Shown: positions 1 to 14,135 of the stretch, in pieces
Numbering within the stretch: position 1 is the stretch's first letter
How the letters are laid out: each line of letters starts with the position of its first letter
DNA from: a virus
DNA: 20,106 bases
Direction: 5' to 3' (one strand)
IMG/VR virus record: IMGVR_UViG_3300022894_000006
Span: 1-20,106 of that record
Notes under the pieces: generated by a model
What the model was told of the DNA's origin: nothing
The model's input: the letters and a program-made list of their open reading frames with translations, nothing else
The model's database searches: none
Position numbers and translations under genes: made by a program

Positions 1-390
1 GGCCAGCTCCAAGGCCTCGGTGATGCGGGTGACTCGAACAGTGTCGAGGCCACCGATTGCAGTCACCGGCGTGGCGCCGGAGTAGCCGTGGAACGACAGC
101 GTCCTGGTCGACGCGGCGACGAGCGCCAGGGCCTGAGGCTCGTCGAAGTTCGTGCTGGTGATGTGCAGGTCGGTGTTGCCGCTGCTCTTGATGCCAGCGA
201 AGACGTAGCAGTTCATCGCGCCGGCGGCGACCGCGGCGGCGACCTCTCCCGAGCCGGCCTCGATGCCACCGCCGTGGATGGCGATCGAGGCGCCCTTGGC
301 GCCCGGGAACAGGGTGACGGCGCGGGTGTAGTCCACGCCTTCGGTCTCGGCCGCGGCCAGGGCGGCGTAGTTGGCGTACAGATCGGCCAC
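1..390 (-). CDS. Poly-gamma-glutamate hydrolase-like protein (partial, cut by left edge)
   Basis: The 130 visible codons begin at a GTG (388-390) preceded by AAGGAGG, 17 bases after the distal tail gene stops. The protein resembles the phage poly-gamma-glutamate hydrolase family (PghP-like, Gamma_PGA_hydro), zinc-dependent enzymes that cut gamma-glutamyl bonds in poly-gamma-glutamate capsule. Family hallmarks appear in order: IHGGGIEAGSGEVA (about residues 38-51), LHITSTNFDEP (75-85) and LSFHGYSG (98-105), followed by an IGG motif (112-114). The His and Glu in the first block and the His in the third are the likely metal or catalytic residues. Its place right after the distal tail gene suggests a virion-borne tail-tip enzyme that clears surface polymer, but this is inference; known phage enzymes of this family are thought to be soluble. 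The C-terminus, and any fusion to a tail domain, lies outside the window. The family call is strong; the substrate is not proven. Confidence 0.85.
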   Translation of the reverse strand, partial: MADLYANYAALAAAETEGVDYTRAVTLFPGAKGASIAIHGGGIEAGSGEVAAAVAAGAMNCYVFAGIKSSGNTDLHITSTNFDEPQALALVAASTRTLSFHGYSGATPVTAIGGLDTVRVTRITEALELA

Positions 391-407
391 GGTCTATGCC
401 TCCTTGA

Positions 408-1421
408 TCAGGCGGTCTCGTGGCGCGGCGTGAAGGTCATCGCGATCTGCGTGCCTTCGCCGGCGCCGTCGACCTGGAACCTGATCTGGTTCTCGCCGTC
501 GGTCAGCGGCCACAGGTAGGCGCCGCCGGCCACGTTGAACCAGTCGACGTACTCGGACAGGTTGGCGTCGCCAGGGCCGCGCACGGACGGACGGCTGGTG
601 GTGATGTGGATCGTCTGGCCGGCGGTCAGCGTGTATTCGACCGCGAAGCGCAGGCCGAGCGTGAGGTTCTCCGCCTCGACCCGAGTCATCGGTCCGGTGA
701 TCACCCAGGTCGGCCAGGCGTCGACCTCGCCGGGGTTGAGGATGCTGGTCTCGGCGGGGTCGCCGCCTCCGCCTTCGCCGATGACCTGCGAGCTGGTCAG
801 GAACATGAACGGCGTGTAGAAGGTGGCCGGCGCCTCGGGGTCGCCCGGGTCGGTCGGGCCGACGAAGGAGCGCTCCGCGAGGATGCTGCGGTCGCTGGCC
901 CAGTAGCCGTCCGGGCAGTAGAGCTGCAGGACGTGCTTGGACCACAGGTGCCCGTGCTCGGCCTCGCCCTCGAAGCCCTGCTCGTAGTAGCAGGCGATGA
1001 GCCGGTACCGGCCGTCCGGCCTTTCGATCTTGATGTACCCCGGCGCCTTGCGCTGGGTCGTCATCGTGAACGCCCGGGTGATCCGGCGGCTGCGCTCGAC
1101 GTACTGCAGGTGGTCTTCGCCCCAGACGTAGACCGGCCACTGCATCCGCCGGGGCTTGGTCCGGATGAACCGGACCTGCTCGCCACCGCGGCTCAACTCG
1201 TCCGTGACGATCTCGATCGGCACGGCGCCCCAGCCGGCCGGGCCGTTCATGGTGAACCAGCCGATCTGCTCGTCGGTCATGCTGAGCGGCCACTCCACGC
1301 CGGTCGGATCGATCCAGGACGCCGTGAGCGTGCCGACGTCCTCGCGATACGCGACCGAGGGTGGGGTGATGATCTCTGGTTCGGGTGGGAGTACCAGCAG
1401 GCCGCCAGCAAGGATCGCCAT
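408..1421 (-). CDS. Distal tail protein (Dit-like, siphovirus tail family)
   Basis: This 337-residue protein directly follows the tape measure gene, the usual place for the distal tail (Dit) protein that forms the hub between tail tube and tip. The sequence resembles actinophage phage-tail family proteins: an N-terminal beta-rich part with a WPLS segment (about residues 44-47), a central segment with the CYYEQGFEGEAEHG stretch, and a C-terminal beta-sandwich-like part ending in a hydrophilic tail. I see no signal peptide or membrane segment. The ATG at 1419-1421 has a purine-rich AGGGGTGAGG ribosome binding site. A strong hairpin lies between this gene and the tape measure stop. A tail-tip enzyme gene follows after 17 bases. 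The assignment rests on position, length and general resemblance; a minor tail protein of another class is possible. Confidence 0.75.
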   Translation of the reverse strand: MAILAGGLLVLPPEPEIITPPSVAYREDVGTLTASWIDPTGVEWPLSMTDEQIGWFTMNGPAGWGAVPIEIVTDELSRGGEQVRFIRTKPRRMQWPVYVWGEDHLQYVERSRRITRAFTMTTQRKAPGYIKIERPDGRYRLIACYYEQGFEGEAEHGHLWSKHVLQLYCPDGYWASDRSILAERSFVGPTDPGDPEAPATFYTPFMFLTSSQVIGEGGGGDPAETSILNPGEVDAWPTWVITGPMTRVEAENLTLGLRFAVEYTLTAGQTIHITTSRPSVRGPGDANLSEYVDWFNVAGGAYLWPLTDGENQIRFQVDGAGEGTQIAMTFTPRHETA

Positions 1422-1485: not shown

Positions 1486-4400
1486 TTACCAGTTGGGACG
1501 GGTGACGCGATCGAGCGTGTCGCGGCGGGACTGGATGGACTGGAGCCGGTCGGCCGTCAGCGTCGAGTTGGCGAAGTCGAAGTTGTAGGCGTCTCCGCGC
1601 CCACCGCTTCGCCCGCCGACCGCTGCCTGGGCCACCTTGCTGATGCTGTTCCACTGCTCGTTGGTGAGCACCGCGTCGGGCTGACGGCGGCCGTGGAAGA
1701 CCGACATCTGCTGGCCCGGCATCTCCCGGGTGTCCGGGAGCCATCCACCCTGGTCGTAGGCCCAGTGGACGTGGTTGTAGTGCATCGCCTTGGTGATGCC
1801 GCGGAAGACGTGCGGTCGGCCGTTCCAGATCTGCCTCGCCCCCTTGGGCGAGAAGATCAGCTCCCGGCTGTTCGGGTAGTTCTTGTGGATCCACTCGAAC
1901 ACGTCGGACCGCGGCGGGAGGTCGGTTGCCCGGTTCTTGCCGTGGTACGACGGGTTGCCGGTCGCCGTGATGGCGCCGGGCCGGAAGCCGGAGATCAGCG
2001 GCAGGCCCGGGAAGGCCATGCGCAGGATCCTCATCATGCCGGCCGAGCCGCCCAGGCCGCCGGCGGAGCCGGGGGTTCCGGCAACGCCTTCGTCCTGGCC
2101 GCCCAGGAACAGGCCCTTCACCTTGTCGGTGAGCGATCCGAGCAGGGTCTTCGGCAGGCCGAGAGCCGCCTTCACGAACGTGGTGTCCTTGCCGGGCACC
2201 AGGTTGATCAGCTTGTCGGCGAGCTTCTTCAGGAATCCGGCCGGGTCGCTCGCGAGGTCCTTGAACCCCTCGAACACGTCCGTGGCCTTGTCCTTCAGGC
2301 CCTTCCAGAGGTCGCTGCCCTTGCCTCTGGCCTTGTCCCACCAGTCGCCGGGGCCTTCGCCCGCGCCGCCGGGGATGACGCCGCCGCGGGCGTAGCCACC
2401 GAGGAACTGGTTGACCGCTGCCTTGCCGCCGCGCCGCGCTGCCGCGTTGGCCTCGTCGAGCCACGGGCGGACCAGCGCGGTGACCTCGGGCCGGAGGATG
2501 CCTTCTCCGCCGGAGAGCCCGATGACGCCGCCGGTCGGCGAGATGAACGTGTGGTTGTCGACTCCGGGGCTGTAGCCGGGGAGCACGTCCATGACACCGC
2601 CCGTGGCCCAGCCGCCCGAGGGCGGCGGGATCTGGACGTTCTTGGGCTCGACGTCGAACATCTCGGCGAGCTTGTTGTAGCCCTTCAGGATGCCCTGGTT
2701 GAGCAGGGTCTCGACGATGAACTTGATCGGCTTTCGGGTCTGTTCCTTCAGCCAGTTCCAGTACTCGCCCAGGCGCTTGATCGCCGAATCCCACTGAGGC
2801 CGCACGTACTTTTCGATGATGCCACCCAGCCACTTAAAGAATGGCGTTATGGCGTCGATGAATGGCTTGATGAAAATTCGATAGAAGGTCGTGAATGTTA
2901 CGCCCAGAACCTTCATGGCGATTTGCGCGACACCGAAGGCGACCTTGAAGGCAGCCGCCCAGATGTTCGTGACGATCTCCATGCTGCGGAAGATCGGCTT
3001 GATCACGTTCTCGTACAGGAACTTGATCACCGGGACCAGGACCTTGGTGATCACGAAGCTCATCTGCTGGAACGCGGGAGCCCACACCCACTTCCAGAGG
3101 AAGAGGACGGCCTTTCCTACCGCCACCAAGATCATGCCGATGACCTCGAAGATCGGCTTGAAGATGGCCCACAGGCGCTGCGCTACCTCCCAGATTCCGC
3201 GCATGGCGGGAAGGAAGGCGTTGTAATACAAATTAAGCGCAGAAGCTGCGAGGCTGGCCAGAATGGGCTGAACCTGAACCCAGACCATCTTCAGGATTTC
3301 GATGAACTGCTGCCACAGATTCACAAAGAACTCACGCAGCGGTGCGACCTTCTGGAATAGCAAGGTGATACCGACAACGGCAGCAGCGACCGCAGCAATC
3401 ACGCCGGCGACCACGAAGGCTGTGGTGCTGATCGCGGCGACCGAGGTTGCCGCGCTCAGGATCCCCAGACCTGCGGCCAGGCCGGCGATACCGGCGACCA
3501 GTGCGATCAGGACGTCCTCGGGCAGCGACGACAGGAAGCTGACGAAGCCGTCGAGGATGGTCAGGACGACCGGACCGAGCGGTGCCATGGCCTCGATCAG
3601 CTTGGTCCCGAAGATGATCAGCTGACCGAAGAAGTCGACGACCAGCGGACCGTTGTCCCGGATGTACTGCAGGAAGTTCTGGAATCCGGCGTTCTGGTCC
3701 AGCGTGGTGGCCCAGTCCTTGAACGCCTCGGACATCTCGACCACGCCGCCAGTGATGTCTTCGGAGAAGGGCGTGAAGCCCAGGAACAGGCCGATGAAAC
3801 CCTGGAGCAGGTTGGTGGTGATCGTGTAGAGGTCTTCCAGCGACGGCACGGCGGTGTCATCGATGTACTGGAAGAACTTCTGGAAGACCGGGTCCTTCAG
3901 CGAGTCGGCGAACCGGATGAACAGCTGGCCCAGCTTGTTACCCACGCGGCGCACGAAGTCCGTGAACGCCGGCAGGTAGGGCAGCACGGACTCGATCGCG
4001 GTCTGCAGCCCGGACAGCATGCCGTCTGCGGCGGCGGCCCGCAGGTCGTAGAAGTCGTCGCGCAGGCCGAAGATGAACTTGGCGAAGCGCTGGGCCGTCG
4101 GAGACAGCTTGCCCATCGCGGTGTTCACCTTGTCGAGCGCGGCGCCGCCGGCATCTCCGGCGCTGGCGTACGCGCCGGCCAGCGCCCGCTGGGCGGACAC
4201 CAGGCCCTGCTGGGCACCGGCCAGGGCGAACGCAGCCTGGCGCTGCTGAGCGTCGCGGTCGCGCCGCTCGTTGGACAGCCGCTCCTCGGCATCGGAGATC
4301 GCCTGCTGGCTGCGCTCCTGCTGCTCCTGCTGATTTCGGATGGAATCAGCGATGGCCTGGTTGCCGTCGATGAGGGCCTGCTGCTGGTCCTTCTGCGCTT

Positions 4401-6342
4401 CGATCAGGTCGCGCTTGGCGTCGGCGACCTTCTCGTCCGCATCTCGGACCCGCTCCTGGGCGTCAACGATCTCCCGGGAGCCCTCCAGCCCCTTCTCGGT
4501 GTAGTCGTCGTACTTTTCAGCCAGCTCCTGCTGAGTGTTGCCCAGGTCGACGAGCTGCAGCTTGCGCCGCTCGTAGTTGATCTGGGCCTGCTTGCGCTCT
4601 GCCTCGGTCGCCCGGGGGTTCGCGATCAGCTTGTCCAGCTCTTCCTTGGCCTCAGCGATGTCGAGAAGGGCCTGCTGCTGATCGAGCGAGTTCCGCTCGA
4701 TCGCCACAGTCACGTCCTCATACGCGTGCTGGGCGTCGCGATACGCGCGCGTCAGATCCTCGCGAGCGCGCTGGGCGTCGGTCTCATCCCGGGCCAGCGA
4801 CCGTTGCGCGTCCTGGACGCGCTGAGCCGCTTCGACCGCGTCGCGCGCGGCCTTGCGGCGGGCCTCGGCCACCTTGCGGGCAGATTCCTCGGCATCGCGA
4901 TCGGCTTCGACCCGAGCCCGCGCCAGGTCACGCTCGGCCTTGGCCACGGACTGAGCCGCCCGGATGGCGGCGTCGCGGTTGCTGGCGATGGTGTTGGCCA
5001 GCGAACGCCGCGCCGACGCGACGCCGTCGATGGCGTTGAGTACCTGGTTCTCGCTGTTGACCAGGGACTTGTTGGTCTTCGACTGGTCGTCGGCCGCGTC
5101 GCCAAGAGCCTTGACAGCGTCACCGACGCCGCCGAAGCCGAGCACCATGACACCGATGCCGGCGCCCGCCCCGAGCGCCGCCGTGCCGAGCGCGCCGATC
5201 GCCGCGGTGGCAGCGGCAGCGGCCGGCACGATCACCGAGCCGAGGCTTGCGCCCAGGGCGATCAGGTTGCCGAGCCGGGAGAAGTTGACCTGCAGCGACT
5301 CGCCGAACGAGACCAGGCGCGCCCGCGCGGAGTCGGTGTCGACGTTGACTTCGACCTCGGCATCGTCCCCGTCGATCCGGTTGAGCAGCACGAGCACGCC
5401 ACCCAGCTGGGTGGCCGCGGCGGCGGCGTCGGTCCGGACGTCGATGTCGACGCTGAAGTCATGGGCGATGGCCTTGAGCCGGGCGAACTGCGCCTCGACG
5501 TTGTTCGCGAAGTCCTCGACGTCGATGTTGACGCCAATCTCCAGGTCACCCAGGGACTTGATCTGCTGGCGGATCCGCTGGATCTCGCCGTAAATGTTCT
5601 TGTCGTTCAGATGGATCGGCAGGTCCTGGATGGAGCCGGCGGCCTCACGCGCGCCCGCGGCGGCCTTGCCCGCGGTGCTTCCGCGGAACACCCGGGCAGC
5701 TTCCTCCTGGGCGGCCTTGCGCTGGGCCTCGACGATCTTCTGCTGCTCGGCCTGCTCCTTGCGCAGCTGGACGATGCGCGCGGCGTCCCGGCGGATCTGC
5801 TCCTTGTGCGCTTCCTCGCGGGCCTTCTCCAGCTCGCGCTCGGCAGACTCCTGCTCCCGCAGTGTGTCGCTGGCCAGCTTCGAGAGGGCCTTCTGCCGGG
5901 CTGCAGCGACCTGGATGAGGATGCCTGCCCGCTGCTTGGCGGCGCGCTCGGTCCTCTTGGTCTCCTCGCTCTGCGCGCGATCGAACGCCTTGAGGTCGTC
6001 CTCAGCCAGCTTCTGCCGGATCTTGCCCAGGCCGGCGTACAGGTCGCCCTGCTTCTTGACGGTCTGCTGAGTCCGTCTGACCTGGTCGTTCTCGGACCGC
6101 TCCAGCAGCTTGGCGATGGCCTGCGCGCGAGCTGTGGCCAGGTCGGCCGCGGCCTTGGTGGTGTCCTTCTCGACGTCCTTGCTGGCCTTGGTCAGCGCGT
6201 CGGACAGAGCCTTCGGGATCTGCTTGTCCAGCTCGACCCCGAAGGACCGGGCCATCTTCCGCAGGTCGTTCGCGATGTTCTTCTCGATGTCGCGGAACGA
6301 TGGAATGACCTGCAAATACGCGGTGCCAGCGTTGTACGCCAC
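1486..6342 (-). CDS. Tape measure protein with C-terminal M15-like peptidase domain
   Basis: At 1618 residues this is the largest gene and follows the frameshifted chaperone pair, as tape measure genes do. It sets tail length and acts during DNA ejection. Residues about 60-215 and 430-700 are charged, heptad-rich and probably coiled coil. Hydrophobic Ala/Gly-rich stretches lie at about 358-410 and 940-995. Near the C-terminus SYHGKNRATDL (1465-1475) and HYNHVHW (1521-1527) match the SxHxxxxAxD and HxH zinc-site pattern of M15 D,D-peptidases; likely ligands are His1467, Asp1474 and His1524 or His1526. Such domains in tape measure proteins help breach peptidoglycan. The start is GTG at 6340-6342; the N-terminus reads AYLQVIPSF, typical of these proteins. 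The start codon lies inside a strong hairpin. By the usual 0.15 nm per residue, the tail would be about 240 nm (inference). Part of the gene (about 2820-3420) is less GC-rich than the rest. Confidence 0.95.
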   Translation of the reverse strand: MAYNAGTAYLQVIPSFRDIEKNIANDLRKMARSFGVELDKQIPKALSDALTKASKDVEKDTTKAAADLATARAQAIAKLLERSENDQVRRTQQTVKKQGDLYAGLGKIRQKLAEDDLKAFDRAQSEETKRTERAAKQRAGILIQVAAARQKALSKLASDTLREQESAERELEKAREEAHKEQIRRDAARIVQLRKEQAEQQKIVEAQRKAAQEEAARVFRGSTAGKAAAGAREAAGSIQDLPIHLNDKNIYGEIQRIRQQIKSLGDLEIGVNIDVEDFANNVEAQFARLKAIAHDFSVDIDVRTDAAAAATQLGGVLVLLNRIDGDDAEVEVNVDTDSARARLVSFGESLQVNFSRLGNLIALGASLGSVIVPAAAAATAAIGALGTAALGAGAGIGVMVLGFGGVGDAVKALGDAADDQSKTNKSLVNSENQVLNAIDGVASARRSLANTIASNRDAAIRAAQSVAKAERDLARARVEADRDAEESARKVAEARRKAARDAVEAAQRVQDAQRSLARDETDAQRAREDLTRAYRDAQHAYEDVTVAIERNSLDQQQALLDIAEAKEELDKLIANPRATEAERKQAQINYERRKLQLVDLGNTQQELAEKYDDYTEKGLEGSREIVDAQERVRDADEKVADAKRDLIEAQKDQQQALIDGNQAIADSIRNQQEQQERSQQAISDAEERLSNERRDRDAQQRQAAFALAGAQQGLVSAQRALAGAYASAGDAGGAALDKVNTAMGKLSPTAQRFAKFIFGLRDDFYDLRAAAADGMLSGLQTAIESVLPYLPAFTDFVRRVGNKLGQLFIRFADSLKDPVFQKFFQYIDDTAVPSLEDLYTITTNLLQGFIGLFLGFTPFSEDITGGVVEMSEAFKDWATTLDQNAGFQNFLQYIRDNGPLVVDFFGQLIIFGTKLIEAMAPLGPVVLTILDGFVSFLSSLPEDVLIALVAGIAGLAAGLGILSAATSVAAISTTAFVVAGVIAAVAAAVVGITLLFQKVAPLREFFVNLWQQFIEILKMVWVQVQPILASLAASALNLYYNAFLPAMRGIWEVAQRLWAIFKPIFEVIGMILVAVGKAVLFLWKWVWAPAFQQMSFVITKVLVPVIKFLYENVIKPIFRSMEIVTNIWAAAFKVAFGVAQIAMKVLGVTFTTFYRIFIKPFIDAITPFFKWLGGIIEKYVRPQWDSAIKRLGEYWNWLKEQTRKPIKFIVETLLNQGILKGYNKLAEMFDVEPKNVQIPPPSGGWATGGVMDVLPGYSPGVDNHTFISPTGGVIGLSGGEGILRPEVTALVRPWLDEANAAARRGGKAAVNQFLGGYARGGVIPGGAGEGPGDWWDKARGKGSDLWKGLKDKATDVFEGFKDLASDPAGFLKKLADKLINLVPGKDTTFVKAALGLPKTLLGSLTDKVKGLFLGGQDEGVAGTPGSAGGLGGSAGMMRILRMAFPGLPLISGFRPGAITATGNPSYHGKNRATDLPPRSDVFEWIHKNYPNSRELIFSPKGARQIWNGRPHVFRGITKAMHYNHVHWAYDQGGWLPDTREMPGQQMSVFHGRRQPDAVLTNEQWNSISKVAQAAVGGRSGGRGDAYNFDFANSTLTADRLQSIQSRRDTLDRVTRPNW

Positions 6343-7885: not shown

Positions 7886-8542
7886 CTAGGTGGCGATGTC
7901 GATGCCCATCTTGACGAGCAGGGCCTTCCAGCCCGGTCCACCGAACAGCCACTCATGACTCGTGCCGGCCGTGCTGTCCTCGTAACCAGTGAAGGTGAGA
8001 GGATACTGCACGGGATCGTCACCGTCCGTGTAGACCTGCTCGCCACGCTCAGTAATCTTCGCGCGGGGCATGTAGCGACCCAGGTAGATCTCGCCCTCTT
8101 CGATCTCATCGACGAAGAGGCCCAGGACGCGGTAGTGGTAGTTCGCGGCCCGGGTGGGCTTGGCGATCCGGACCTCGCCCGTGACCGCGGTGGCCTCCAG
8201 GCCGGTCGTGTCGACGCCGATGTAGAGACCCAGCGTCAGCAGCTTCGTCTCCAGGGCGGTGCAGCCCATGGTGATGACGTCGCTGGTGATGTCGGAGCGG
8301 ACCGGCTCCTGGGAGCCGAACGCGTTGACGTCGGACTGCTCGGTCTCGCGGCCCCACGAGGAGCCGTCGGTGGAGGTCCAGCCCAGGTCTTCCCAGCCGG
8401 AGGGCAGGGTGACCAGGTCCGAGCCGGAGCCGGTGGTCAGCGAGGCGAGGTTGACGGTGGACAGTGGCGCGATGAAGATCGAGCCGTCGCGAGCCTTCCG
8501 AATCAGCTCGTTCTGCTTATCGCGCAGAGTCGAATACGGCAT
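7886..8542 (-). CDS. Major tail protein (tail tube subunit)
   Basis: This 218-residue protein has the length and position of a siphovirus major tail (tube) protein: after the tail terminator and before the chaperones. The ATG at 8540-8542 is preceded by AAGGAAGGG, an efficient ribosome binding site. The N-terminus (SIFIAPLSTVNLASLTTG) and the C-terminal half (YLGRYMPRAKITERG, PLTFTGYEDSTAGTSHEWLFGGPGW) resemble actinophage tail tube proteins, in which a beta-sandwich forms hexameric rings. The longer open frame upstream to 8827 lies within the tail terminator gene and lacks a matching start, so I chose this Met. Two mutually exclusive hairpins lie just upstream, and tandem hairpins follow the stop, as fits a very highly expressed gene with its own control. 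Confidence 0.88.
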   Translation of the reverse strand: MPYSTLRDKQNELIRKARDGSIFIAPLSTVNLASLTTGSGSDLVTLPSGWEDLGWTSTDGSSWGRETEQSDVNAFGSQEPVRSDITSDVITMGCTALETKLLTLGLYIGVDTTGLEATAVTGEVRIAKPTRAANYHYRVLGLFVDEIEEGEIYLGRYMPRAKITERGEQVYTDGDDPVQYPLTFTGYEDSTAGTSHEWLFGGPGWKALLVKMGIDIAT

Positions 8543-8560
8543 GTGCCCTTCCTTCCAGAT

Positions 8561-8593
8561 CGGGGCATGACGATGAGCCCCGTCAAGCGGGGC
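8561..8593 (-). promoter_or_regulatory. Three-arm alternative hairpin upstream of the major tail gene
   Basis: CGGGGC at 8561-8566, GCCCCG at 8577-8582 and CGGGGC at 8588-8593 allow the middle arm to pair with either neighbour, but not both: loop 5 bases with the upstream RNA arm, or 10 bases with the downstream arm. The downstream arm ends a few bases before the major tail ribosome binding site. The pairings are seen in the sequence; switching is inference. Confidence 0.35.
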
Positions 8594-8615
8594 GGGCAGG
8601 GTGGGCGGTTCTCCC

Positions 8616-9029
8616 TTACGACGGCACGGTCTGCCGGCGGAAGACAACGGTGTAGCGGGCCTCGAACCGGTTGATGTTCGGAGCCCACGGCGGCATCTCC
8701 TCGGGAGCCGAGGTGCACTCGACGCGGTCGACGACCGCTGAGCCGAGCCGCAATCTCTCGGTGGTGAGCTTCTGCCGGATGCGCTCTGACAGCACTTCCG
8801 CAGCTGAGAGGCTGTCGCTGAGTACATCCACGTGCACGAATGCGTAGTCGCTTACTTCGTCGCTGGGTCCGCCGTGACGGGTGACCCGGATGAACGGCAT
8901 GACGCCGGTCAGAGTCGACGGGAATCTGGTTCCGACGCGCGAGCCGGCGGTCACCGCGGGGGCCAGCGGTTCCAGGAGCTTCGCGACGGTCTTGGGTGCG
9001 TCGGGGAATCGACGCCATGGCTGGCTCAT
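8616..9029 (-). CDS. Tail terminator protein
   Basis: This 137-residue protein starts at ATG 9027-9029, overlapping the stop of the upstream tail completion gene by the ATGA arrangement, so the two are translationally coupled. Length, position directly before the major tail gene, and the pattern HVDVLSDSLSAAEVLSERIRQKL followed by a C-terminal RFEARYTVVFRR strand match siphovirus tail terminator proteins (functional analogues of lambda gpU), which cap the tail tube and join it to the head. The RFEARYTVVFR ending, with ASxxxA-like helices before it, is common in actinophage members. A longer reading frame extends upstream but only as the shadow of the coupled gene. Confidence is high on role by synteny, moderate on precise family. 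Confidence 0.8.
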   Translation of the reverse strand: MSQPWRRFPDAPKTVAKLLEPLAPAVTAGSRVGTRFPSTLTGVMPFIRVTRHGGPSDEVSDYAFVHVDVLSDSLSAAEVLSERIRQKLTTERLRLGSAVVDRVECTSAPEEMPPWAPNINRFEARYTVVFRRQTVPS

Positions 9030-10836: not shown

Positions 10837-11568
10837 TCACCACCCGCTCGGGAAGGTTCCGCCGCGCGGCCAGCGACGTCCCTGTCGGCTGGTAGCCGGC
10901 GGGACCAGCCCACCGGTGATGCGTGCAGTTCCGATCTTGCCGCGCTTACCGGCGGTGCCCGAGCCGAGCCCGGCCTCGCCGAGCAGTGCCCGGTCGGCGT
11001 CGGACAGCTGGAGCATGCCGCTGGCGGCCTCGGGGTCGTAGGCCCGGGAGAACGGACCAGTCGTTTCGGAGCGCAGGCCGGCGGGGTTCCGCATCACCTG
11101 CGCGGTCATGTTGATCACGACCAGGCCGACGGTGTCCCGGGATACGGTGCCGCCCGCGATCTTCGCGTCCACGTTCGAGAACGAGTCGCGGATCAGCTTG
11201 CTGGCCCGGCGCAGCAGCGCGCGTGCGGTCGCCTGGCGGCTGGACGAGAGGACGCCGTACAGCTCCTCGTACTCCGCCAGCGTCGCCAGCGGCGGCGGCT
11301 GGTTGAGCACCTCGAAGCGCTCGTAGTACGACTCGACACTGGTGGCCGTGCCTGACGAGGTGAAGCGCGCTTCCCAGAAGCCGGCGGTCGGGCCGGTCAC
11401 GACGACCGGGTACTTGCCGGTCCCGTCGCCGCCCTCGTCGAGGGTCTCCGCGACGGGCACCTCGTCGTAGAGCACGGTCTCGGTGTCCCGGTTGATCCAG
11501 GTCAAGGTGACTGTCGCGCCGGGTGCGGTGGCGTATGTCAGCAGGATCGCGTCGCCGACCTCGCTCAT
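10837..11568 (-). CDS. Head-tail adaptor with N-terminal Ig-like domain
   Basis: This 243-residue protein starts at ATG 11566-11568, overlapping the repeat protein stop (ATGA). Residues about 96-190 (LATLAEYEELYGVLSSSRQATARALLRRASKLIRDSF, then VVINMTAQVMRNPAGLRSETTGPFS) match gp15/Gp19-like adaptors that dock under the portal. Residues 1-90 are extra: a beta-rich region with WINRDTETVLYDEVPV and a GFWEARFTSSGTATSVESYYERFEV ending, like an immunoglobulin or BppU-type beta-sandwich. Usual adaptors of this class are near 100-150 residues, so this is a fused, probably surface-exposed domain. The C-terminal 50 residues are Gly/Arg-rich. The adaptor call is solid by synteny and motif; the Ig-like call is pattern-based. 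Confidence 0.75.
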   Translation of the reverse strand: MSEVGDAILLTYATAPGATVTLTWINRDTETVLYDEVPVAETLDEGGDGTGKYPVVVTGPTAGFWEARFTSSGTATSVESYYERFEVLNQPPPLATLAEYEELYGVLSSSRQATARALLRRASKLIRDSFSNVDAKIAGGTVSRDTVGLVVINMTAQVMRNPAGLRSETTGPFSRAYDPEAASGMLQLSDADRALLGEAGLGSGTAGKRGKIGTARITGGLVPPATSRQGRRWPRGGTFPSGW

Positions 11569-14135
11569 GCTGCTCCCCTCGTCGTGCGGGCGATACTGGC
11601 GATCGGACCTTGCCGGGTGATGCTGCCGCTCTCGTCCTTGCGAGCCAGGGCGTCGAGCTTGCGGCCTGGGGTGACCGTGTGCGGGTACGCGTAGAGCGCC
11701 GGGAAGAGCACCGCGTCGGCGACCAGCTGGCTGATTGCGCTGAGCTGGACCTGGTTGAACGAGTTGCCGTCCGTCGCGACGTGCAGCTCCGACATGCCGG
11801 TCAGGACCACTGCGCCGGCCAGGGCCTGATCGACAGCCAGCAGCAGGTCGGAGGCGGCGAGCAGCTCAGTCTGGGTTTGGATCGACCGGATCGCGTTCAC
11901 GGTCAGCGTGCTGTCGGCAGCAAGCTGGGCGGCAGCCTCGCGCAGGACGACTCCGGCGACCGCCAGACTCGTGCCTGCAGACAGGATGACACCAGCGGCT
12001 GACGATTTCACGGCGTCTGCCGTGAAGCCCGACGCGGCCTGCAGCACTGTGGCGCCGGACTGGATGGCGCCAGCCTGGATGGTCAGCTGGCTGGCGGCCG
12101 AGAGCAGTGCGGCTGCGGGCCGGGTGACGACGGCTGCCGTCGTCAGGGAGCTGGCCGCGGACAGCACGGTGGCCGCATTCGCGATCCGGATCCCGTTGGC
12201 CGTCAGGGCAGAGGCTGCAGTCAGCGCGGTGGCTGCTACGGCACTGTGCTGCCCATCAGCGGTGAGCGCTGACGACGCTGTCAGCGCGGCGCCGCTCCCG
12301 GCCGCTGTAGTGGCGGCGGCGGCGAGTTCTGAGGCTGCGGCCAGGACGGCCGCGCCGGGGGTGACGCGGATCGCCTGAGCGGCAAGGCTGGACGCGGCCG
12401 AGAGTGCCGCGGCTGACACCGCGGTCCGCAACGCGTTGGTGGCGAGCGTGGAGGCGGCCGAGAGCGTCGCTGCGCCAGCTGTGTCTCTCACCCCGGCTGA
12501 CGCCAGGGCTGACGCTGCAGAGAGCGCCACGGCCGCCTGAGCGGTCAGCAGCGCGGTTGCAGACAGCGAGCTGGCTGCCGACAGCGCCGTGGCGCCGGGG
12601 GTGGCCCGGGTGCCACTGGCGGTCACCGAGCTGGCCGCGGACAGTGCCGTGGCTGCGGGCAGGGCCAGCTGGCCGGCGGCGGTCAGCGAGCTGGCCGCCG
12701 ACAGTGTGCTGGCGCCAGCCTTCGTCGTGATAGCCCCGGCGGTCAGGCTGGAGCCGGACGAGAGCGTTGCTGCCGCGCCCAGCTCCGCAAGGCCGGCTGC
12801 TGTCAGCGATGACGCGGCCGAGAGGTCGGCCGCGCCCGCGAACACGGTCGGCGCCACGTTGAAGTAGTCGAACTCGGCGTAGTTCGCGGTGCCGTCGTTG
12901 CGGTGGCCTTCGAGCAGCACCCGGGCGGTGCGCGCATCTGTGACCCACGCCGGAGCCGTCATGGTCCGGCGCGTGGTCCAGGTGATGCAGTCCGGGCTGG
13001 TCTCCCAGAGCAGATTGCCGGTGTCCAGCCGCATGCGCCACCAGGCGTGTGCGACCGGGTCGTACGTCAGGTTCGTCGAGGACGCGTCGGCGAAGTTCGA
13101 GCGCTGCATCAGCTGCAGCTGGTCGGTCGCCAGGTTGTAGTAGAAGCCGGCGTCCGTGCCGTTCGCGTTGATCGACGCCTGCAGCCAGGCTGCGGTGTAT
13201 CCGCTCGTCGCCCCGTTGGGGGCTGGCATGTAGGCCCGGAGGAAGAACGAGTCGAAGACGTAGGAGCTGATCGTCTGGTAGCCGGAGAAGGCCGTCGAGA
13301 CATCTACCCGCGCTCGGCCGCCGGTCTCGCTGACCGTGCCGAAGTTGCCGCCCCAGGGCGGGTTGTCGATGCTGTTGTTGTCGAAGTTGTCGGTGATGGT
13401 CGACAGGTTCGCCGGCGTCCGCTCGCGCAGTCGGATCAGCGCGAAGGGACCGCTGCTCGTCGCCGACCAGGTCATGCCGACGGTGGTGGCCGCGGTGGTG
13501 CCGGGGTTGGTGACGTTGGCGTCCCAGGAGAAGACCGACCCCTGGTTGCCCGAGCTATTCCCGACGCGGGACCGTGCGGTCACCGTCGAGAAGGTCGTCC
13601 CGCTCTGGGTGATGACGTGGGCGCTGGCCGCCGCGGTGTTGTCGGTCTCCGCGGAGAAGCCGACGTGCACCAGGTCGTTCGTGGTCAGGCCGTTGGACCA
13701 GGTACCGGATGCGGCTGAGGGGTTCGCCGCCGCGGTGGTGTCGCTGGCGGTCACCGCGATCGGCGTGGCCCAGGCGCCGGTCCCGGAGGTGTAGACGTCC
13801 ATGCAGCCGTGGACCGCGGACCCGCCGGTCGAGGCGATGGTGATGCTGCCGGTCTCGGTGCCGTCGAGGATCCGGTAGTACTTGCAGATCCGAGTCGGGC
13901 CGGTGTCGGCGGCGTTGGTGCCGGTACCGCCGGTGACATCGGTGATCCGGGTCCAGGCCTTGCTCGCGCCGTCCGTCAGGGTGCTGGGGAGGGTCGCAGT
14001 GCTGGGCTTGGTTGCGACGGTCAGGATCGCCATGCGGTTCACGGCGACGCCGACGTAGGCGACGGTCGTGGACGTGGTGCCCCGAGCTGCCGCTGTCGTG
14101 GAGACGCCCGTCCCCGCTGCAAAGCTGATCGCCAC
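11565..14135 (-). CDS. Large fibre-like virion protein with lectin-like domain and 20-residue repeats
   Basis: This 856-residue protein starts at GTG 14133-14135 with GGAGG upstream. Three regions are visible. Residues 1-235 form a Ser/Thr/Gly-rich beta domain like those of phage fibres. Residues about 245-430 look like a concanavalin A/LamG-type jelly roll (SYVFDSFFLRAYMPA, GFYYNLATDQLQLMQRS, AWWRMRLDTGNLLWETSPD, EFDYFNVAP), which in other proteins binds sugars. Residues 434-811 hold about nineteen 20-residue repeats with the core LSAASSLTA. The last 45 residues are basic. The gene lies between capsid genes and head-tail adaptor, not with tail-tip genes, so it may be a head-attached or neck-attached appendage. 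It follows a small fibre-like gene. Role and location are inference; no catalytic motif is seen. Confidence 0.8.
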   Translation of the reverse strand: MAISFAAGTGVSTTAAARGTTSTTVAYVGVAVNRMAILTVATKPSTATLPSTLTDGASKAWTRITDVTGGTGTNAADTGPTRICKYYRILDGTETGSITIASTGGSAVHGCMDVYTSGTGAWATPIAVTASDTTAAANPSAASGTWSNGLTTNDLVHVGFSAETDNTAAASAHVITQSGTTFSTVTARSRVGNSSGNQGSVFSWDANVTNPGTTAATTVGMTWSATSSGPFALIRLRERTPANLSTITDNFDNNSIDNPPWGGNFGTVSETGGRARVDVSTAFSGYQTISSYVFDSFFLRAYMPAPNGATSGYTAAWLQASINANGTDAGFYYNLATDQLQLMQRSNFADASSTNLTYDPVAHAWWRMRLDTGNLLWETSPDCITWTTRRTMTAPAWVTDARTARVLLEGHRNDGTANYAEFDYFNVAPTVFAGAADLSAASSLTAAGLAELGAAATLSSGSSLTAGAITTKAGASTLSAASSLTAAGQLALPAATALSAASSVTASGTRATPGATALSAASSLSATALLTAQAAVALSAASALASAGVRDTAGAATLSAASTLATNALRTAVSAAALSAASSLAAQAIRVTPGAAVLAAASELAAAATTAAGSGAALTASSALTADGQHSAVAATALTAASALTANGIRIANAATVLSAASSLTTAAVVTRPAAALLSAASQLTIQAGAIQSGATVLQAASGFTADAVKSSAAGVILSAGTSLAVAGVVLREAAAQLAADSTLTVNAIRSIQTQTELLAASDLLLAVDQALAGAVVLTGMSELHVATDGNSFNQVQLSAISQLVADAVLFPALYAYPHTVTPGRKLDALARKDESGSITRQGPIASIARTTRGAA
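11703..12836 (-). repeat. Degenerate tandem 60-bp repeats coding about nineteen 20-residue units
   Basis: The tract codes for units with the core LSAASSLTA followed by a variable segment and a Gly/Ala-Ala-Thr step. Central units are closest to the consensus; the last four or five drift (for example LAADSTLTV, LLAASDLLL). That gradient is typical of unequal exchange, with conserved central and eroded end units. In the protein the period of 20 suggests a beta-solenoid or similar fibrous rod. Confidence 0.75.

Follow-up and report, generated by a model that had tools for sequence, protein, structure and literature searches.

A poly-gamma-glutamate hydrolase domain fused N-terminally to a Gp37-type tail hub in a soil actinobacterial phage population

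Known gamma-PGA hydrolases and tail hubs

The closest described enzymes are PghP of Bacillus phage phiNIT1 (PDB 3a9l; MEROPS M86.001) and PghL/YndL of B. subtilis, which is of prophage origin (6hri, 5onj). Both are stand-alone proteins of about 210 aa, and PghP of phiNIT1 is apparently a soluble, non-virion protein freed at lysis (PMC6966330). In the survey of Mamberti et al. (2015), phage PghP was found in Bacillus and Staphylococcus phages only, no prophage link of PghP was seen outside Bacillales, and pgsB accompanied only 13% of the pghP cases outside Bacillales (PMC4497714). The domain described here comes from a linear public virus record of 20,106 bases, the whole of which is called the window below. 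It shares with PghP and PghL the full-length Pfam family, the zinc ligands and the catalytic glutamate. Unlike them, it is fused to a tail hub and belongs to an actinobacterial phage.

The hub itself resembles Gp37-type actinophage tail proteins (PF14594) such as gp19 of Streptomyces phage Kromp and gp17 of Microbacterium phage Dismas, which belong to the same family and take the same place after the distal tail protein (Dit). Kromp gp19 is hub only (385 aa), whereas the protein of the window population adds a PghP domain and a middle stretch. No PghP was seen in the 217 isolated phages matching the hub. The PghP-GDPD protein of Staphylococcus phage vB_ScaM-V1SC04 (L267:4034-5893) also has an N-terminal PghP on a larger protein of the tail/baseplate region, but it differs in phage group (Twortvirinae), partner domain (GDPD) and PghP lineage. 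This fusion is annotated solely as a glycerophosphoryl diester phosphodiesterase, with its PghP part unremarked. Capsule depolymerase tailspikes are typically polysaccharide-specific beta-helix trimers. By analogy they would work alike, as virion-bound enzymes stripping a surface polymer, but the window protein is predicted to be a carboxypeptidase-like zinc peptidase on a tail hub.

The PghP domain and the full-length hub protein

The window has a GC content of 68.5%. Its minus strand shows a siphophage order of head maturation protease, decoration protein, major capsid protein, tail tube, tape measure, Dit and PghP gene, the last of which is cut off at the left edge of the record. The isolated phages nearest in capsid and Dit infect Arthrobacter and Streptomyces, and the source is a soil actinobacterial phage. 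The frame containing the major tail (tube) protein lies at 7886..8731 on the minus strand (PF25681, E 3e-18; phrog_476); its real start is probably more internal. The tape measure protein (1618 aa; phrog_4197 and others, E 2e-68) occupies 1486..6342 and the Dit (337 aa; PF22768, E 8e-6; phrog_106, phrog_33) 408..1421, both on the minus strand.

Two other features of the window were recorded. Between the head and tail genes, a frame of 856 aa (11565-14135, minus strand) is rich in imperfect repeats of the type ALSAASSLTAAG, and its sole match is phrog_14065, a family without assigned function. The C-terminal part of the tape measure (1603-2085, minus strand) contains the motifs YHGKNRATDLPP and HYNHVHW, which are metallopeptidase-like (M15/M23-like). 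A metallopeptidase within the tape measure was considered and rejected, with no Pfam, profile or PDB support.

The PghP ORF runs from 390 to 1 on the minus strand. It encodes 130 aa, starts with GTG 17 bases after the Dit stop and runs off the left edge. A strong ribosome-binding site, AAGGAGG (399..405, minus strand), lies 8 bases upstream of the GTG. An earlier note, made from the letters of the window, had called 1-390 a PghP-like gene directly following the distal tail gene. The identity of the Dit and the short gap bear out its position, and all three motifs that it quoted are present. The profile search agrees: PF05908 matches the ORF with E 4e-38 and 131 bits (cut-off 22) over profile positions 1-123 of 191. 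PHROG 4175 matches with E 5e-25. The solved enzymes 21dc, YndL/PghL (5onl, 6hri) and PghP (3a9l) match with E 5e-25 to 2e-18, well above chance.

Alignment with relatives places the zinc ligand equivalents at H39 (codon 274..276; PghL H41, PghP H40), E44 (codon 259..261; PghL E46, PghP E45) and H101 (codon 88..90; PghL H102, PghP H103), and the activity-critical histidine equivalent at H76 (codon 163..165; PghL H77, PghP H78), all on the minus strand. The catalytic glutamate (PghL E165) corresponds to E162, which lies past the window edge and is present in sibling contigs. All five residues are invariant across 12 relatives, so the metal ligands have not been lost. The roles of the PghL zinc ligands, H77 and catalytic glutamate are taken from PMC6506827. 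Judged by sequence, the PghP domain is an intact-looking zinc enzyme of the poly-gamma-glutamate hydrolase family (PF05908 / MEROPS M86).

The window is the entire public record, and the remainder of the gene was therefore taken from two sibling contigs. Over 6,390 bases, L002 and the window share 99.94% identity; for L003 the figure is 98.6% over 854 bases, which assigns both contigs to the same phage population. Each contains a single unbroken frame of 959 aa (L002:6001-8880, L003:466-3345), and the full gene is thus much longer than the 130 aa visible in the window. The protein consists of PghP (5-197), a middle stretch (about 206-530) and a Sipho_Gp37 tail hub (554-933). In L002, PF05908 covers the whole domain (1-191/191) with 194.5 bits (cut-off 22), and PF14594 (Siphovirus ReqiPepy6 Gp37-like tail protein) is complete at 554-933 with 119.3 bits (cut-off 26.2). 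The fused tail domain that the earlier note had proposed to seek past the left edge is found in the siblings. In the window phage the hub would lie outside the window, as predicted from the 99.94% identity over 6,390 bases. The hub gene follows the tape measure and Dit with tight spacing. Inspection of the domain border by eye showed no ribosome-binding site paired with a start codon. Because the frame is unbroken and has no internal start at this border, the hydrolase belongs to the tail hub and is not a separate gene.

The middle stretch ends proline-rich. This region (L002 aa 206-530, L002:6616-7590) had no Pfam match at 0.1 and no credible match in the PDB (best E 0.38). It was absent from the isolated phages searched, and its relatives in IMG/VR were confined to two phage populations. 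Against 325 actinobacterial genomes it gave chance-level matches, the top two of which overlap unrelated-looking ORFs. Its motifs had suggested a TIM-barrel glycoside hydrolase, a candidate that no test supported. The structure of the 959-aa protein predicted from the single sequence (mean pLDDT 31.6) and that of the middle region from three sequences (pLDDT 33.6) were useless. For modelling the full length, a 34-row alignment was set aside, since hub fragments were misaligned onto the PghP part.

A syntenic sister phage (L061/L062) is 70% identical to the window population in the tape measure, 76% in Dit and 67% in the hub protein. The hub protein of the sister has 760 aa and consists of the middle stretch and the hub without PghP. 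The two DNAs match up to and including CGAGACCGCCTGATCA at the Dit stop, beyond which they diverge; the proteins rejoin at KVGVTL/RVGVTL. Since PghP is missing from an otherwise equivalent hub protein in the sister, the domain is an add-on module. The simplest reading of these sequences is that N-terminal modules were gained (or lost) stepwise on one hub.

No integrase was found in four related contigs; all four are fragments, and this absence is therefore uninformative. A gene on L272 (2966-4036, minus strand), from the sibling phage L003, codes for a protein of 357 aa that seems to carry a signal peptide. The protein contains a Neprosin domain (PF03080), and peptidases of this family are unusual in phages.

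Spread of PghP among phages and prophages

A search of 50,697 phage records (E 0.01) found no PghP-type domain in isolated actinophages. The matches came from phages of Bacillus, Staphylococcus and Listeria, plus one labelled merely "Phage". Actinobacterial prophages and soil virus contigs do carry PghP-type domains, many of them N-terminal on tail proteins. These fusions are of several types. One consists of proteins of about 406 aa with a common C-terminal tail module, encoded directly after a phrog_5313 gene. Others involve a phrog_837 minor tail protein, phrog_2840 minor tail proteins close to a baseplate wedge gene, a spike protein, and, in Dactylosporangium roseum (L095), the Dit protein after the tape measure.

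We built a tree of 84 PghP domains, in which the window's domain was represented by L002/L003. Its group comprises 25 rows (support 100/96), which are tail fusions of actinophages and stand-alone relatives, and PghP is attached there to three different tail proteins. Outside the group lie the fusions to Dit, phrog_2840, spike and GDPD, with some placements on long branches. From their position elsewhere in the tree, we conclude that PghP probably became joined to tail proteins on several occasions. A direct origin of the window PghP from Bacillus phages was rejected, because the tree places the domain in an actinobacterial clade.

The stand-alone PghP genes of Streptomyces (L073/L175, L176 and L178) nest among or near the tail fusions, and all their hosts are CapC-positive. 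Some retain a short C-terminal stretch that resembles the tail module (e.g. STIPVSR). These genes appear to be prophage remnants or domesticated copies. In several Bacillus and Staphylococcus phages, PghP proteins (H4/H91, H31, H33, H92, H118) are labelled "replication protein", which looks like a copied misannotation.

Gamma-PGA genes of the hosts and proposed function of the fusion

Among hosts of an intact PghP tail fusion, 8 of the 9 searchable genomes carry PgsC or PgsB (G001, G002, G003, G005, G006, G007, G289 and G439). The negative host is S. odonnellii (G004), a draft genome without pgsC. In an evenly drawn sample of 393 Streptomyces genomes, CapC (PF14102) scored above its cut-off in 106 (27%). 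All six hosts of a tail-derived PghP in this sample, three with intact and three with apparently truncated fusions, were CapC-positive (Fisher p 3.5e-4, ignoring host kinship); the three intact fusions alone gave p 0.019. Hosts of the distant PghP type were depleted in CapC (5/56; two-sided p 0.0014), the division into tail-derived and other PghP being defined post hoc with the hits already known. With all 13 high-scoring PghP hosts pooled, 10 were CapC-positive (p 1.9e-4). In Micromonosporaceae, PgsB scored above its cut-off in 21 of 171 genomes (12%) and in both tail-fusion hosts (p 0.014, ignoring host kinship). All these co-occurrence statistics are uncorrected for host phylogeny and describe the hosts of a few related prophages rather than the host of the window phage itself.

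The host loci examined (L203-L210, from G001, G005, G289, G003, G002, G006, G007 and G010) resemble complete pgsABC-type operons with CapA (PF09587), a HAMP-domain protein, PgsB, PgsC and an NlpC/P60-like protein. Profiles were run on G289 and partly on G001 and G007, and the remaining loci were assigned by sequence likeness. PgsB matches TIGR04012 with 382 bits (cut-off 223), and the PgsC hits score under the NCBIfam equivalog cut-off. A literature search returned no report of gamma-PGA made by these actinobacterial operons.

We consider it likely that the Gp37-type tail hub with its N-terminal, zinc-dependent PghP-type hydrolase is a virion-bound gamma-PGA depolymerase aimed at host gamma-PGA. 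The PghP domain is both fused to and encoded among virion structural genes. As the N-terminus of a Gp37-type hub protein, it is by default expected to be attached to the virion. Once the protein is assembled into the virion, the hub would display the domain at the tail tip beside Dit. The domain, if catalytically active as its residues suggest, would cleave gamma-PGA, its predicted substrate, on or around a host cell that would itself make this polymer. The tail would thereby cross the gamma-PGA layer to reach the receptor and the cell wall. Because close relatives lie in prophages of hosts with gamma-PGA genes, such phages probably cut the host coat with PghP.

Another use of the same activity would be to remove gamma-PGA of other soil bacteria such as Bacillus, or to act in a biofilm matrix, rather than on the coat of the phage's own host. 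Mamberti et al. suggest that organisms not producing gamma-PGA apply PghP to the polymer in their environment (PMC4497714), and the depletion of the distant Streptomyces PghPs in pgsC-positive genomes (5/56) agrees with such a role. The tail-fused clade, however, trends in the opposite direction, with 8/9 hosts positive for pgsB or pgsC, and for the window protein we regard this use as improbable.

Tail-tip hubs frequently bear cell-wall hydrolases, and the gamma-glutamyl bond of the cell wall is a D-Glu gamma bond. The earlier note had left the target open between a host surface polymer and this bond. A tail-associated lysin cutting the gamma-glutamyl bonds of peptidoglycan stem peptides (D-iGlu-gamma-diamino acid) would suit both the hub location and the bond chemistry. 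PghP-type enzymes, however, cut gamma-DL-PGA and spare the all-D gamma-PGA capsule of B. anthracis (PMC6506827). The bond in the stem peptide involves D-Glu, and cell-wall bonds are therefore disfavoured. Such a lysin would also leave the pgsB/pgsC association without explanation, and we rate it slightly lower again than environmental use. The surface polymer, in the form of host-made gamma-PGA, is favoured by the co-occurrence of pgsB/pgsC in related prophage hosts.

It is very unlikely that PghP is split from the hub or produced on its own and then set free at lysis, as the apparently non-structural phage PghP characterised so far is at burst (PMC6966330): such an enzyme fits poorly with PghP and hub sharing one continuous 959-aa frame in both siblings, with a domain border that has no start and ribosome-binding site, and with the fusion of PghP to unrelated tail proteins in other phages.

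The virion-bound depolymerase that we favour combines a known enzyme family with a new architecture, on the tail hub of actinobacterial phages, and we found no description of it in the literature for this phage group. The occurrence of PghP within tail-tip proteins of actinobacterial phages and prophages contrasts with the soluble PghP of phiNIT1 (PMC6966330) and with the 2015 survey, in which Bacillus and Staphylococcus were the only phage sources (PMC4497714). More tentatively, it may be that in some streptomycetes and Micromonosporaceae the product of a native pgsABC-type operon, gamma-PGA, forms the outer layer which phages have to recognise and cut. PghP would then be a swappable enzymatic head on the tail-tip proteins of several actinophage lineages, and the pgsB status of a host would predict which strains can be infected. 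Since prophages with a tail-tip PghP occur in hosts with gamma-PGA synthase genes, the little-studied Streptomyces operon becomes a testable candidate for making a surface polymer that controls infection. The tail fusions also point to a source of virion-bound gamma-PGA depolymerases.
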